In this document: piece by piece, positions 41,380 through 48,097 of the stretch
Layout: the number at the start of each line of letters is the position of its first letter
How positions within the stretch are numbered: the stretch's first letter is position 1
Source of the DNA: Deltaproteobacteria bacterium
GTDB taxonomy: Bacteria > Desulfobacterota > Desulfobacteria > Desulfobacterales > B30-G6
Direction of reading: 5' to 3'
DNA length: 64,000 nt
Assembly (NCBI GenBank): GCA_022340465.1
Contig: JAJDNW010000044.1
Coordinates: forward strand, 1-64,000
The notes under the pieces: model-generated
The model's input: the letters and a program-made list of their open reading frames with translations, nothing else
Told to the model about the DNA's origin: nothing
Database searches by the model: none
Made by a program: the position numbers and the translations under genes

Positions 41380-41974
41380 AGAGAATACGCGCCTTTTTTT
41401 CGAGACCCTTCACGTCTTCGATGGCCTCATCGCCTGGAACGGTTGTCTGTAGTGCATGTAAACCTCAAGATTGCAACCTCGAGGTAAAGATCATTCGGCA
41501 AAAGTGAAGCCGATGACCGCCTATCTTAAGAAGACATATATAGCTGAGTTGAGCGATGTAGTGAGCAGAAATTGACCCCGGCGTTGCAAAAGCCTGAAGG
41601 GTTAAGTGGTGAGGGAGTAAGCATCATTTGGAAGTCAACTGGTCAGAAGAAGAAGGATCCCTCAACACAACGGATGGCAATAATCAAGAATAGGAAACGG
41701 GTCATTTCTTGTCAAGAAAAATGTGGGCGGGCCCGCGACCGGTTGGGGATGTTTCGACGGCGGAGCCACGGGGGGAGAGGGATGCTTCCCCTTTTGCATT
41801 CTCACGGGAAAGATGATATCTGTAGCCGCACCAAGAGGCATCGGCGATGCCGGTGTGGCATGCATTCGCCGGTGACCGGCATATCGCCAAAACATGACAC
41901 GCCGCCGCAGGCAGCGGGGGATGCGCCCGCTGGTGGGTTTCAAAGCAGCCGGCAGGTTCGAGGAGGCCCATAGA
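41380..41974. other. Spacer between divergent liv and MFS/AOR-ADH transcripts
   Basis: Nearly 600 bp without a supported gene. It should contain the promoters of both divergent units. CGTTGCAAAAGCCTGAAGGG at 41582-41601 is a copy of a short repeat also found at 33506 and 54021. No clear sigma-54 or sigma-70 pair stands out to me. Confidence 0.4.
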
Positions 41975-43294
41975 TTGAGCGACCCGCCCTCACGATTTTC
42001 AGCAAAAAAACGCCGGCCTTTCTTCTATGGCTGGATCGTCATCGCCGTGGGCTTCGTTACCCTGAGCATCGCCTTCGGCATCTGGTACTCCTATTCCGTC
42101 TTTTTCCTCTCCATCGTGAGCGAATTCGGCTGGGACCGGGCGGCGGCATCCAGCATCTTCTCCATATTTCTCGTCTGCCATGCCTTGATGGGGCTGTTAA
42201 CCGGATTTCTGCAGGACCGCTACGGCCCCAGGCTGGTCATTCCCGTGGGCGCCTTTATTCTGGGAGGGGCTTTGATATTGACCAGCCGCGCCCACAACCT
42301 CTGGCAGTTTTACCTGACTTACGGCGTATTGGCCGGCGCCAGCGTCAGTCTGTTGGGGTTTACCTCCCACTCGGCCTTTCTGCCCAACTGGTTCGAGCGC
42401 AAAAGGGGGCTGGCGGTCGGCATCGCCACCGCCGGCATCGGCTTCGGCATGCTGGTGATCGTGCCCCTGGTCGAAAAGGCGATTGGGAGGTTCGGCTGGC
42501 GCAGCACCTACATCCTGCTAGCCGCCCTGGTAATTCTCGTTGCGGCGCCCCTGAACGCGCTGCTTTCACGGCGCAACCCGGCCGACCTCGATCTGAAGCC
42601 CGATGGCGATCCTGCGGGAAAACGGGTCGATCAGCCCCACCATTTCATGGTGATGAAAATCATCGATGCCGATTGGGCCAACCGGGAGTGGACATGGCTA
42701 AAGGCCCTGCAAACCAGGCGGTTCTGGTTCATGGTCTTAGCGTTTTTCTGCCTCTCCTATGCCTATCAGGGAACGCTGCTGCATTCGGTCTCCTCCATGG
42801 TGGACGCCGGGTTGACCAGGCAAAAAGCGGCCGCCTGTTTCGGGGTTCTGGGTATTTTGGGATCCATCGGAAAAATATTGTTCGGATCGCTGTCCGACCG
42901 CTTCGGCCGTGAGCGCGCCAACACGGTCGGCATCACCGCCGCCGCCGTCGGCATTGTTTGCCTGATCAATACCACCACCCCCGACAGCGTGCTGCCCCTG
43001 GTATTTGCGACGCTGTTCGGACTCGGTTACGGTGCGGCGGCTCCAATGATGCCTTCTGTGAGTGCGGACATCTTCCTGGGAAGATCGTTCGGACTGATCT
43101 TCGGTATGATCAGTATGGGCAGCGGTGCCGGCGGCGCCCTGGGATCCTTCCTGACCGGCGCCCTGCGGGATGCAAGCGGCGACTACACCCTGCCCCTGTC
43201 CCTGTGCACCCTGAGCCTGGCATGCTCCTGCCTGTTCGTGTGGCTGGCCGGGCCCCGCAAGGTCAGGCGGATGGTAAAAAACGACAAGCATTGA
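41975..43294 (+). CDS. MFS transporter, oxalate/formate antiporter-like
   Basis: About 439 residues from a TTG at 41975 with GAGGAGG upstream; the open frame reaches 41894 but that part is low-complexity. Twelve helices are expected. FYGWIVIAVGFVTLSIAFGI and SYSVFFLSIVSEFGWDRAA are typical of the OFA/monocarboxylate branch, with GFLQDRYGPR as the loop 2-3 motif and GSLSDRFGRERANTVGI repeating it in the second half. The AOR-ADH fusion gene starts 28 bases downstream, so this carrier probably imports or exports the acid or alcohol handled by that enzyme. Confidence 0.85.
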   Translation: MSDPPSRFSAKKRRPFFYGWIVIAVGFVTLSIAFGIWYSYSVFFLSIVSEFGWDRAAASSIFSIFLVCHALMGLLTGFLQDRYGPRLVIPVGAFILGGALILTSRAHNLWQFYLTYGVLAGASVSLLGFTSHSAFLPNWFERKRGLAVGIATAGIGFGMLVIVPLVEKAIGRFGWRSTYILLAALVILVAAPLNALLSRRNPADLDLKPDGDPAGKRVDQPHHFMVMKIIDADWANREWTWLKALQTRRFWFMVLAFFCLSYAYQGTLLHSVSSMVDAGLTRQKAAACFGVLGILGSIGKILFGSLSDRFGRERANTVGITAAAVGIVCLINTTTPDSVLPLVFATLFGLGYGAAAPMMPSVSADIFLGRSFGLIFGMISMGSGAGGALGSFLTGALRDASGDYTLPLSLCTLSLACSCLFVWLAGPRKVRRMVKNDKH

Positions 43295-43322: not shown

Positions 43323-46181
43323 ATGACTATGCAGTTGCTACGTGTCGACATGCAGCGTGAACGTACCGCCACAACCAGGCTCTCTGAAAAATGGCTTGCC
43401 GTCGGCGGCAGCGGGTTGATTGCAAAAATCTTGAATGACGAGGTGCCTCCCCTGACGGACCCCATGGGACCCGGCAACAAATTGATCATCGCCTGCGGCC
43501 CGCTGGCCGGAACCCGGGCGCCGCAGCTGGGGCGCATTTCGGTCGGCGCCAAGAGCCCCCTGACCCTGGGAATCAAGGAGGCCAACGCCGGCGGGCCGGC
43601 GGGGCAGCACTTGGATCAGTTGGGCTACAGGGCCATCGTCGTTGAAAACGCCGCCGATGAGGGAAAAAGTTTTTATCTCAGGCTGACCAAAAAGGGAGCC
43701 GATCTTGTTCGCGACGACACGCTGAAGGGCCTGAAAAACTACGCACTGGTGCAGCGGCTGCACGCAATCTATGGGAAGCGGGTGTCCATTGTCTGCACGG
43801 GGCCCGCCGGGGAGAAAAAATACCGCGGCGCATCCGTATCCTTCACCGATGTTCTGGGCGATCCTTCCCGCAATGCCGCCAGGGGCGGGCTGGGTGCTGT
43901 CATGGGGGCCAAGGGGCTCAAGGCGATCGTGCTGGACGCGTCCGCAACGCCTCCGCCCGCCATGGCCGACCCCGTCCGGTTCAGGGACACGGTGAAATCC
44001 TGGATCGACACCATGGCGCACGACATCAGCTGCGCCCTCTATTCGAAATACGGCACCCCCTTTGCGGTGGCCAATTCCGCCAATCAGGGCACCCTGCCCA
44101 CCAACAATTACCGCTCGGGAACTCCCCGGGACTTTTATCGCCTCAGCGGCGAGGCCATTCAGGAAATTCTTTTCGAACGCGGGGGCCGAATGCACGGCTG
44201 CATGCCGGGCTGCGCGGTCAAATGCTCCATCATTTATCCGGACGCCGCGGGAAACCGGCTCGCCTCGGCCTATGAGTACGAAACCATTGCCCTTTTGGGG
44301 GCCAATCTGGGCATTTTGGACCTGGATGCCATCGGCAGGTTGAAATTCATCTGCGACGACCTGGGACTGGATGCCATCGAAACCGGCGCCAGCCTGGGAG
44401 TGGCCGCCGACGCCGGCCGGATGGAGCTGGGAGACGCGGAGGCCGCGGAAAAACTTCTGCTGGAGATAGAGCGGGGCACCGAGTTCGGTCAAGCGTTGGC
44501 CAACGGGGTTGTCGCCACGGCCGAGGCCCTGAATGTCAAACGCGTTCCCGCCTATAAGGGGCAGGCGCTGCCCGGTCACGATCCCAGGGCCGTGAAGGGC
44601 ACCGGCGTGACCTACGTCACCAGTCCCATGGGCGCCGATCACACGGCCGGCCTCACCTATCGCATTCCCAAAAAGAAAGAAAACCAGGCCGCAAACTCGC
44701 TCCGCTCCCAGGTGGAGGCGGCGGTCTGCGACACCTTCGGATACTGTCTGAACGCGGTCCCCGGGGGGCAGGCTTCCCTGTACGACTTCCTGGCCACCTT
44801 GATGAACGCCCGCTTTGGCACGGAACTGACCCGGGATGATATCGTGGAATGCGGCAAGCAGACCTTGAAGGATCAGCTGCACTTCAATCAGCAGGCCGAA
44901 TTCGCCCGCGCGGAAGATCTATCGACAACCTTTTTCAGGTCCGAAGCCCTCGCGCCGACAGAGCAGGTCTTCGACGTGCCGGATCAGGATCTCGATGGTT
45001 TCTGGGAGCGGCTGGACGGTTTCAAGGTCAGGGAAAAGCAGTGGGAAGTCCGTATACCGCCCATGCCTGAAACCATGATCGGCGCAGGCGTTGTTAAAAA
45101 AATGGGCAAAGCGGCCGCCGGGCTCAAGATGCAAAAGGCGCTGGTGGTTTCGGACCGGGTGATGCAGCGCACGGGACGTGTCGACGACGTGTGCGCCATC
45201 CTCGACAGGGCCGGCATCGCCGCCCACGCTTTTCTGGATATCGAGCCCGACCCCCCGGTGGAGCTGATCGAAACCGCCGGCGATGTGTACAGGGCCAAGG
45301 GGTGCGACGGCATCGTGGGACTGGGCGGGGGGAGCAGCCTGGATGCCGCCAAGGCCATCGCCCTGCGGGTTACCCATCCCGGGGCATTGACCGAATATGA
45401 AAGCATCGTGGGCGGAACGGCGAAAGTGAAGCCCATCCTACCCCCCGTTATCTGCATCCCCACGACCTCGGGAACCGGCAGCGAAATGAATCCCTATGCG
45501 GTCATTACCAACAAGCGGCGCAACGTCAAATTCATGCTCATGAGCAACCACCTGATCCCCAAACTGGCCGTCATCGATCCGCAGTACTGCATGAGCATGC
45601 CGCCAGGATTGACGCGGGAATCGGGCATAGACGCCCTGGCCCACTGCGTCGAGGGCTATGTCGCCCTGGCGGCGCCCTACCACCCCTACTTCGAATCGCT
45701 GGCCCTGTATGCCACCAAGATGATCGGCCGCAGCCTGGTTACGGCTTACAAACAGCCGCATAACCTGGACGCCCGCACCGACATGTGCATGGCGGCCGCC
45801 TATGGCGGGATCGCCTTCAGCAAGGGGCTCGGGCTGGGCCATGCCGTCACGCATGTTCTTGGGGCCCACTACCACCTGCCCCACGGAAGAGCCGCCACCA
45901 TCGGTCTGCTTTGCTTCGTAAAAGCCAACAAAGATGTGTGTGCAAGGGAGTTCGGGGAGCTCGCCTTCATGCTGAACGGCGCCACGGACCTGGAAGAAGG
46001 GCTGTCGAAGCTCTACCGGAGCCTGGAGATCACGCCGACGCTGAAAGAGAGCCGCATACCCGAAAAGGACCTGGAAAAAATCGCCTTCTACACCTACAGA
46101 GACGCGGTCAATATTGCAACCAACCCTTCCCGGTTGAGCGAGAAGAAGATACGCTCGCTGCTGGAAGAGGTCTACGACTGA
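43323..46181 (+). CDS. Fusion of aldehyde:ferredoxin oxidoreductase and iron-type alcohol dehydrogenase
   Basis: 952 residues in one uninterrupted frame; AGGGGGAAAA precedes the ATG. Residues 1 to about 560 are an AOR-family tungsten/molybdo-pterin enzyme: IIACGPLAGTRAPQLGR and GAKSPLTLGIKEANAGGPAG open it. The 4Fe-4S ligands are Cys293, Cys297, Cys301 (HGCMPGCAVKCS) and Cys475 (FGYC). After a linker, residues from about 580 form a group III Fe-alcohol dehydrogenase with VGLGGGSSLDAAKAIA for the dinucleotide. The metal ligands are Asp770, His774, His840 and His854 (GIDALAHC; GHAVTHVLGAHYHLPHG). All key residues are kept in both halves. The inferred reaction links acid, aldehyde and alcohol between ferredoxin and NAD(P)H, with the aldehyde passed internally. 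Direction is unknown. Confidence 0.93.
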   Translation: MTMQLLRVDMQRERTATTRLSEKWLAVGGSGLIAKILNDEVPPLTDPMGPGNKLIIACGPLAGTRAPQLGRISVGAKSPLTLGIKEANAGGPAGQHLDQLGYRAIVVENAADEGKSFYLRLTKKGADLVRDDTLKGLKNYALVQRLHAIYGKRVSIVCTGPAGEKKYRGASVSFTDVLGDPSRNAARGGLGAVMGAKGLKAIVLDASATPPPAMADPVRFRDTVKSWIDTMAHDISCALYSKYGTPFAVANSANQGTLPTNNYRSGTPRDFYRLSGEAIQEILFERGGRMHGCMPGCAVKCSIIYPDAAGNRLASAYEYETIALLGANLGILDLDAIGRLKFICDDLGLDAIETGASLGVAADAGRMELGDAEAAEKLLLEIERGTEFGQALANGVVATAEALNVKRVPAYKGQALPGHDPRAVKGTGVTYVTSPMGADHTAGLTYRIPKKKENQAANSLRSQVEAAVCDTFGYCLNAVPGGQASLYDFLATLMNARFGTELTRDDIVECGKQTLKDQLHFNQQAEFARAEDLSTTFFRSEALAPTEQVFDVPDQDLDGFWERLDGFKVREKQWEVRIPPMPETMIGAGVVKKMGKAAAGLKMQKALVVSDRVMQRTGRVDDVCAILDRAGIAAHAFLDIEPDPPVELIETAGDVYRAKGCDGIVGLGGGSSLDAAKAIALRVTHPGALTEYESIVGGTAKVKPILPPVICIPTTSGTGSEMNPYAVITNKRRNVKFMLMSNHLIPKLAVIDPQYCMSMPPGLTRESGIDALAHCVEGYVALAAPYHPYFESLALYATKMIGRSLVTAYKQPHNLDARTDMCMAAAYGGIAFSKGLGLGHAVTHVLGAHYHLPHGRAATIGLLCFVKANKDVCAREFGELAFMLNGATDLEEGLSKLYRSLEITPTLKESRIPEKDLEKIAFYTYRDAVNIATNPSRLSEKKIRSLLEEVYD

Positions 46182-46844: not shown

Positions 46845-48017
46845 TTATGCCCTCCCTAGTATGCAGCAGGCATGGGACTGAAGAATGCCCCCATTGTCGC
46901 TGCAGAGAATTATTTGCGGCGCCTTCGTGTTTGTCTGCGGACCGAGCTGTCGTTTCCCGCACCTTCCCATCAGCTGCATGACCGCCTCCGACAAAGGTGT
47001 CAGCCCCATGAAATAGGCCTCTGAAAGCTGTCCGCCGGACGTGTTCACGGGCATCCTCCCCCCGGGTTCGATGGTGCCGTCCTCGAGCCACGCCTCCCCC
47101 TCCCCCGGCGCGAAAAAGCCGTATTCCTGAAGCGTAAGCTCCACGGTGTAGGTGAAGCAGTCGTATATCTGGCAGGCATCGACATCGCCGGGAGTGACGC
47201 CGGCCATGGCAAAGGCCTGCTCACCCGCCTGTTTGGCGCCCGTGGGGCCGGCCATGTACGTGGACTGGGCGATTTCGCTCGAAGGGTTGTGGTGCCCCAG
47301 ACCCATGATGTAAACGGGCGGGCGCTTCAGGTCACGGGCCCTTTCGGCGGTGGTCACCACCAGCGCCCGGCCGCCGTCCGAGATCTGGCATATGTCAAAC
47401 CGGCGGAAGGGTTCGACCACATAGTCGCAGTGGTAATAGTCCTCGAAAGACATGGGACTGGCATACATGGTCGCTTCCGGATTCAGGTTGGCCCATTTCC
47501 GCTGCCCGGCGGCAATGTGTTTCCAGGTTTCCGGCCCTGTGCCGAACACGTGCATGCCCCTCTGCGCGGCCAGGGCGTAATCCGCCGCGGCCCCCCAGTG
47601 GCCGAAAACGACATTGTCGCCGGCATGGGTCGCCATGTGCTCCATCGTTTGGGCCATGCCGCCTCCGGAAAGACCGCTGTGCCCGTAAGTTATGAGGACG
47701 TGGCGGCAGAGCCCCGCATTGAGCACGCCAACTGCGTGCTGCAGGTGGTTCCGCGATCAGTTGGCGTCCTGAGCGGCGTACAGGGGCGTTATGCCCAGAT
47801 GCTGGGCAATGACCTGCGGGGTCGCGTCCAGCTCACCCGGACAGGGAGGAAAGTGCCGGTAGCTGATAAGCCCGTCGATCTCCCCCTTGTCAAGGCCGGC
47901 ATCCTCGATGGCATTGGCACAGGCTTCCAAGTGAAAACTGAGCGATGTGCGCCCGGGAACCTTTCCCTGGGGCGTGTATCCCACGCCGGCAATGGCGCAC
48001 TTGTTTTTCAGGCCCAT
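46845..48017 (-). CDS. SCP2-type thiolase-like protein with an in-frame UGA at codon 87
   Basis: A single reading frame of 390 codons is interrupted only by TGA (47757-47759). The first 86 codons (AIAGVGYTPQGKVPGRTSL ... YAAQDAN) and the remainder (SRNHLQHAVGVLNAGLC ... HACCILGRA) together match one full-length thiolase of the lipid-transfer type, with VDACQIYDCFTYTVELTLQE and NTSGGQLSEAYFMG. The UGA falls in the loop before the helix where thiolases carry their nucleophile. A 7-bp hairpin with loop AGTTG begins 16 bases after it, which fits bacterial SECIS rules, and selB is in this genome. Selenocysteine read-through and a plain nonsense mutation are both possible. A DUF35 partner follows downstream. 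Confidence 0.7.
47722..47759 (-). promoter_or_regulatory. SECIS-like hairpin after the in-frame UGA
   Basis: On the minus strand the UGA (47759-47757) is followed after 16 bases by AGCACGC, loop AGTTG, GCGTGCT (47740-47722). The distance from UGA to loop is 23 bases and the second loop base is G, within the published bacterial SECIS model as I remember it. A competing 8-bp pairing (GCCAACTG with CAGTTGGC, 47758-47765 and 47727-47734) places the UGA at the base of a larger stem. Confidence 0.45.
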
Positions 48018-48097
48018 ATCCCTCCTCCTTTCAGGTCTTCATGCGTTTTTTGCTTTTCTATCACACGCCATCGCGCTTTTCAATTTCCATCTGCATC

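Follow-up and report, generated by a model that had tools for sequence, protein, structure and literature searches.

The fusion gene and its conserved residues

The window, by which we mean the whole 64,000-nt stretch of DNA that was analysed, contains a single 952-codon frame on the + strand (43323..46181) that begins with an ATG 3′ of an AGGGGG stretch and encodes a 952-aa protein without an internal stop. The first half of this protein is an aldehyde:ferredoxin oxidoreductase (AOR), made of an AFOR_N domain (43332..43937, + strand; residues 4-205; Pfam 4e-56, 190 bits against a cut-off of 30) and an AFOR_C domain (44022..44948, + strand; residues 234-542; Pfam 5e-52, 178 bits against 27). 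The second half is an iron-dependent alcohol dehydrogenase (Fe-ADH; 45069..46172, + strand; residues 583-950), which Pfam divides into Fe-ADH at residues 583-753 (1e-47) and ADH_Fe_C at residues 766-950 (3e-39). All four domains lie far over their cut-offs, and the ORF and Pfam results bear out the initial annotation, which had described one uninterrupted 952-codon frame joining an AOR to an Fe-ADH. The nearest solved structure to the first half is the Pyrococcus furiosus AOR, and those nearest to the second half are NAD(P)-dependent methanol dehydrogenases and other Fe-ADHs. The third-codon GC content does not shift where the two halves meet: it is 0.77 for the AOR and 0.79 for the ADH.

Using an alignment of 18 fusions, we found that the expected active-site residues of both halves are invariant. 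Within AFOR_C these are the FeS-cluster cysteines C293, C297, C301 and C475, the last one in a DxxGxC motif, together with E320 and H440, which align with E313 and H448 of the P. furiosus AOR, its catalytic Glu and His. The Fe-ADH half, which has the features of the group III iron-containing alcohol dehydrogenases, shows no variation at its metal ligands (D770, H774, H840, H854) or at D611, which we take to occupy the position of FucO D39, where an Asp favours NAD. The GGGSSLDAAK loop begins at residue 668; its GGGS core (668-671) is invariant across the 18 fusions, and some other loop positions vary. Every residue number that the initial annotation had given for the four cysteines, the four metal ligands and the loop proved correct. 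By these residues, both halves look active. The cysteine spacing, C-x3-C-x3-C, is one residue longer than the usual C-x2-C-x3-C and marks the AOR subfamily to which the fusion belongs, in its fused and unfused members; a Cys motif that appeared out of register in the pairwise alignment with the P. furiosus AOR is explained by a one-residue insertion, as the paralogues show. An AlphaFold2 model of the fusion protein, built from a two-row alignment, reached a pLDDT of 32, too low for the model to be used.

Distribution across genomes

The same frame occurs in 16 other full-length relatives, 53-72% identical, from independent genomes. These belong to about ten families within the window's phylum, and to a second phylum, Spirochaetota. 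One is a 950-aa homologue in the independent MAG Desulfobacteraceae HyVt-17, 72% identical over residues 3-952; 13 further full-length homologues, 58-65% identical, came from searches of the window's class (291 genomes), order (389) and phylum (395), and full-length fusions were present in two of 247 Spirochaetota genomes (53-54% identity). These counts are lower bounds, because scoring covered only a few top candidates in each genome. The viral contigs searched contained no relative of the fusion. Partial homologues include two interrupted by a contig end or a gap (L044, L046), one that is truncated (L045) and one that has decayed (L028, G192:C51), lacking its N-terminal ~118 residues and with its ADH metal-ligand region deleted, a decay in one lineage. 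The Spirochaetota MAG CP070841.1 has its own fusion gene cut by a scaffold gap: its two pieces (L026/L125 and L120) are separated by 1.45 Mb, both border a 100-N gap, and their overlap is almost identical. The public record thus probably contains a scaffold misjoin.

An assembly or annotation artefact could in principle have joined two adjacent genes. Tandem AOR–ADH gene pairs exist, as at locus L034, where the stop of the AOR gene lies 6 bp ahead of the Fe-ADH start codon, and therefore a lost stop could imitate a fusion. However, the 16 full-length relatives in independent genomes refute this explanation, a junction that is conserved and specific to the fusions also speaks against it, and we regard its probability as negligible. 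The initial annotation had itself listed a sequencing or assembly join among the findings that would refute it; independent assemblies carry the same fusion.

The junction and the origins of the fusion

The junction comprises residues 567-580 (45021..45062, + strand; FKVREKQWEVRIPP) and is conserved among fusions, including those of Spirochaetota, with a pattern of roughly F(K/R)E..K.WE(V/I)R(I/F)P. Unfused AOR relatives terminate close to the positions that match residues 563-569; Fe-ADHs that stand alone begin about 10 residues ahead of their first conserved strand. Consequently, there is practically no linker between the halves, and the conservation of a junction without a linker suggests that the two halves may be held in a defined geometry.

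The initial annotation had proposed looking for other single-chain proteins with AOR and Fe-ADH and mapping their phylogeny; such relatives were found and trees were built. In the AOR tree (48 rows), the main fusion clade stands together (100/100) and adjoins unfused AORs. Within this clade the AOR and ADH trees are broadly congruent, and the fusion has therefore been inherited as a unit. A second set of AOR–ADH fusions (L052, L053 and L056), which belongs to the same AOR subfamily and shares 34-35% identity with the window protein, groups with other unfused AORs. Forcing both sets into one clade was rejected on the AOR half (p-AU 1.6e-79) and weakly rejected on the ADH half (p-AU 0.033, with long branches in play). 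On this phylogenetic evidence, the second AOR–Fe-ADH fusion is of independent origin, giving at least two origins. Two unfused relatives of the second set (L141, L142) have an Fe-ADH gene upstream on the same strand, whose product is 46-48% identical to the second set's ADH half over the available part, and at several loci an unfused Fe-ADH lies no more than 1.5 kb from an AOR. The recurrence of the same join in many anaerobes, from at least two origins, points to a genuine two-step enzyme.

The halves might instead be fused without functional coupling, one domain serving a structural or regulatory role or each half acting on a different substrate. The top NCBIfam match of the ADH half is to ErcA, an alcohol-dehydrogenase-like regulatory protein, although at 268 of 550 bits it falls well below the cut-off, and the L028 lineage has a decayed ADH half. 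Against these two observations stand the invariance of the metal ligands and of the dinucleotide-loop core, the fact that the fusion evolved twice, and the adjacency of AOR and Fe-ADH partners where they are unfused, which together make an uncoupled fusion very unlikely.

Gene neighbourhoods

Upstream of the fusion, an MFS transporter gene (41894..43294, + strand) ends 28 bp before it on the same strand; its best match, below the cut-off, is to L-lactate/oxalate:formate-antiporter-like carriers. It is possible that the two genes are co-transcribed as an operon, and that the transporter is a monocarboxylate carrier. The fusion's other neighbours in the window are a ChsH2-type zinc-ribbon/OB protein and a thiolase-like gene (46845-48018, − strand), and no WorS/WorN-type gene lies beside it there. 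The thiolase-like frame is open apart from one in-frame TGA (47757-47759), either a nonsense change or a sequence error; a selenocysteine reading of this codon was checked and found no support. The window's genome carries dsrA over the cut-off. A search for tungstate transporters brought up ABC ATPases unspecifically, with no match that exceeded the cut-off, and is uninformative.

The loci of the main clade share no conserved partner gene, and most have no informative partner, so that substrate and direction rest on few loci, several of which belong to the other fusion clade or to unfused pairs. In the second clade, an AMP-forming acyl-CoA ligase adjoins the fusion at L079, and the same type of ligase together with an acyl-CoA dehydrogenase adjoins it at L078. 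In the main clade, the fusion at L062 is followed by an acyl-CoA dehydrogenase and an enoyl-CoA hydratase. Downstream of a tandem AOR–ADH pair (L074) comes an ADP-forming CoA ligase. These four contexts fit a path that starts from an alcohol and leads through the aldehyde and the acid to acyl-CoA. A CoA-transferase III is found in the context of L075.

A third fusion in the same genome

The window's own genome contains a third fusion, in which an AOR of the same subfamily is joined to a sphingosine-1-phosphate-lyase-like domain; among solved structures, sphingosine-1-phosphate lyases come nearest to this domain (603 bits). This protein of 1043-1045 aa is encoded on contig C18 (L013:1483-4614; also L076) and in a sister genome (L010), with an MFS gene directly upstream. 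It is nested among unfused AORs in the tree, and among the genomes of the phylum that were sampled, its full-length form occurs in the window's own family alone. Its AOR is 46% identical to that of the window fusion, and both have a C-terminal partner from an aldehyde-making family, PLP-dependent in the one case and an Fe-ADH in the other. In the literature searched, no paper was found with both enzyme names, sphingosine-1-phosphate lyase and AOR.

Proposed function and direction

We consider it likely that the window protein is a cytoplasmic, single-chain bifunctional enzyme that interconverts alcohol, aldehyde and acid using NAD(H) and ferredoxin, most probably running oxidatively in this organism. 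The C-terminal Fe-ADH would catalyse alcohol + NAD+ ⇌ aldehyde + NADH. The N-terminal AOR, with a bis-pterin tungsten or molybdenum site and one [4Fe-4S] cluster, would catalyse aldehyde + H2O + 2 Fd(ox) ⇌ acid + 2 Fd(red). Together, the two halves would carry out alcohol + NAD+ + 2 Fd(ox) + H2O ⇌ acid + NADH + 2 Fd(red). We infer the chemistry, the cofactors, the shared substrate and the direction alike, and for a substrate common to both sites in particular, conserved residues alone would be no proof.

By textbook potentials, the alcohol-to-aldehyde step is uphill, the aldehyde-to-acid step is downhill and their sum is near equilibrium. Because the uphill step precedes the downhill one, the two would benefit from drawing on one aldehyde pool; in a tethered pair, the AOR half could pull the first reaction forward while free aldehyde stays low. 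Channelling of the aldehyde between the two sites is plausible, given the conserved junction of near-zero length and the analogy to AdhE/BdhE, for which channelling is supported (PMC12454647).

The same bifunctional enzyme could run reductively, with reduced ferredoxin driving acid to aldehyde and NADH driving aldehyde to alcohol, as an electron sink. Acid reduction by AOR and ADH has been demonstrated for the Clostridium autoethanogenum AOR and proposed for Solidesulfovibrio fructosivorans in pyruvate fermentation (PMC12727526, PMC10084766), and an overall reaction near equilibrium would permit it. Three observations favour oxidation instead: the dsrA-positive genome, the fusion of the same AOR subfamily to a sphingosine-1-phosphate-lyase-like domain, and the acyl-CoA-activating and beta-oxidation neighbours (acyl-CoA ligase and acyl-CoA dehydrogenase) at several related loci. 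The acid-to-alcohol direction with which the initial annotation had led is accordingly the less likely one, and we judge a reductive role unlikely.

Alternatively, the enzyme may dismutate or detoxify a toxic aldehyde into acid and alcohol, with no role in a growth pathway. Both domain families accept aldehydes, the roles assigned to simple cytoplasmic tungsten-containing oxidoreductases (WORs) include aldehyde detoxification (PMC13328260), and conserved neighbours are absent. However, the beta-oxidation neighbours at several related loci and the MFS carrier upstream in the window speak against detoxification, which we find quite improbable beside the oxidative enzyme proposed here.

Relation to known enzymes

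Separate AOR and Fe-ADH enzymes are known to act in sequence. In a sulfate reducer, a separate ADH and AOR have been proposed for ethanol oxidation (PMC10084766), and in acetogens AOR and ADH carry acid to alcohol (PMC12727526). The reactions and electron carriers of this pathway (PMC10084766, PMC12727526, PMC10816221) are those proposed for the fusion, but its two proteins are separate and even differently regulated, whereas the window enzyme is one chain. AdhE/BdhE, like the window fusion, combine an aldehyde enzyme and an ADH that share an aldehyde in one chain, and both architectures represent independent fusions of neighbouring genes (PMC12454647). In contrast, AdhE/BdhE have as their aldehyde half an aldehyde dehydrogenase, which in AdhE depends on CoA and NAD, and the window protein has an AOR. 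Since the AOR would act on the free acid with ferredoxin, two electron carriers would be coupled and CoA would go unused. By Pfam, the N-terminal half holds AFOR domains only and no aldehyde dehydrogenase domain, and the window fusion is therefore not an AdhE/BdhE member. WOR Class I, a single WorL, resembles the fusion in having AFOR_N, AFOR_C and one [4Fe-4S] site and in a large subunit that stands without adjacent WorS/WorN genes (PMC13328260); unlike it, the fusion has an additional C-terminal Fe-ADH.

The main text of the 2026 WOR classification mentions no alcohol dehydrogenase or such fusion (PMC13328260). The initial annotation knew of no characterised enzyme with this architecture, and none is described in the literature searched, a body that takes in few subscription papers. 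The AOR–Fe-ADH fusion enzyme thus appears to be undescribed, though the architecture may already be annotated somewhere. Five of the 92 WOR clades have a member of defined role (PMC13328260). For the clades whose role is not known, which are the majority, the enzyme to which an AOR is fused can hint at the probable class of substrate, here alcohol, aldehyde and acid. The fusion also offers a one-gene route between acid and alcohol with ferredoxin and NADH, and its parallel to the AdhE/BdhE convergence, with other aldehyde chemistry, gives a way to test how repeatable fusion and channelling are. More tentatively, and with rather more doubt than confidence, the fusions may represent a new class of bifunctional metalloenzyme, in which one assembly would channel a free aldehyde between two sites, tungsten-pterin and Fe-ADH, the pools of ferredoxin and NADH would be coupled, and repeated origin would reflect an AOR subfamily prone to fuse with aldehyde-making partners.

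The window's own genome holds 21 AFOR_C matches, seemingly many paralogues for a 4.4-Mb genome. On its contig C149 (L110:1-3581, − strand), an AOR gene overlaps the start of a gene for a multi-[4Fe-4S] ferredoxin–Fe-ADH protein, another physical coupling of AOR and ADH.
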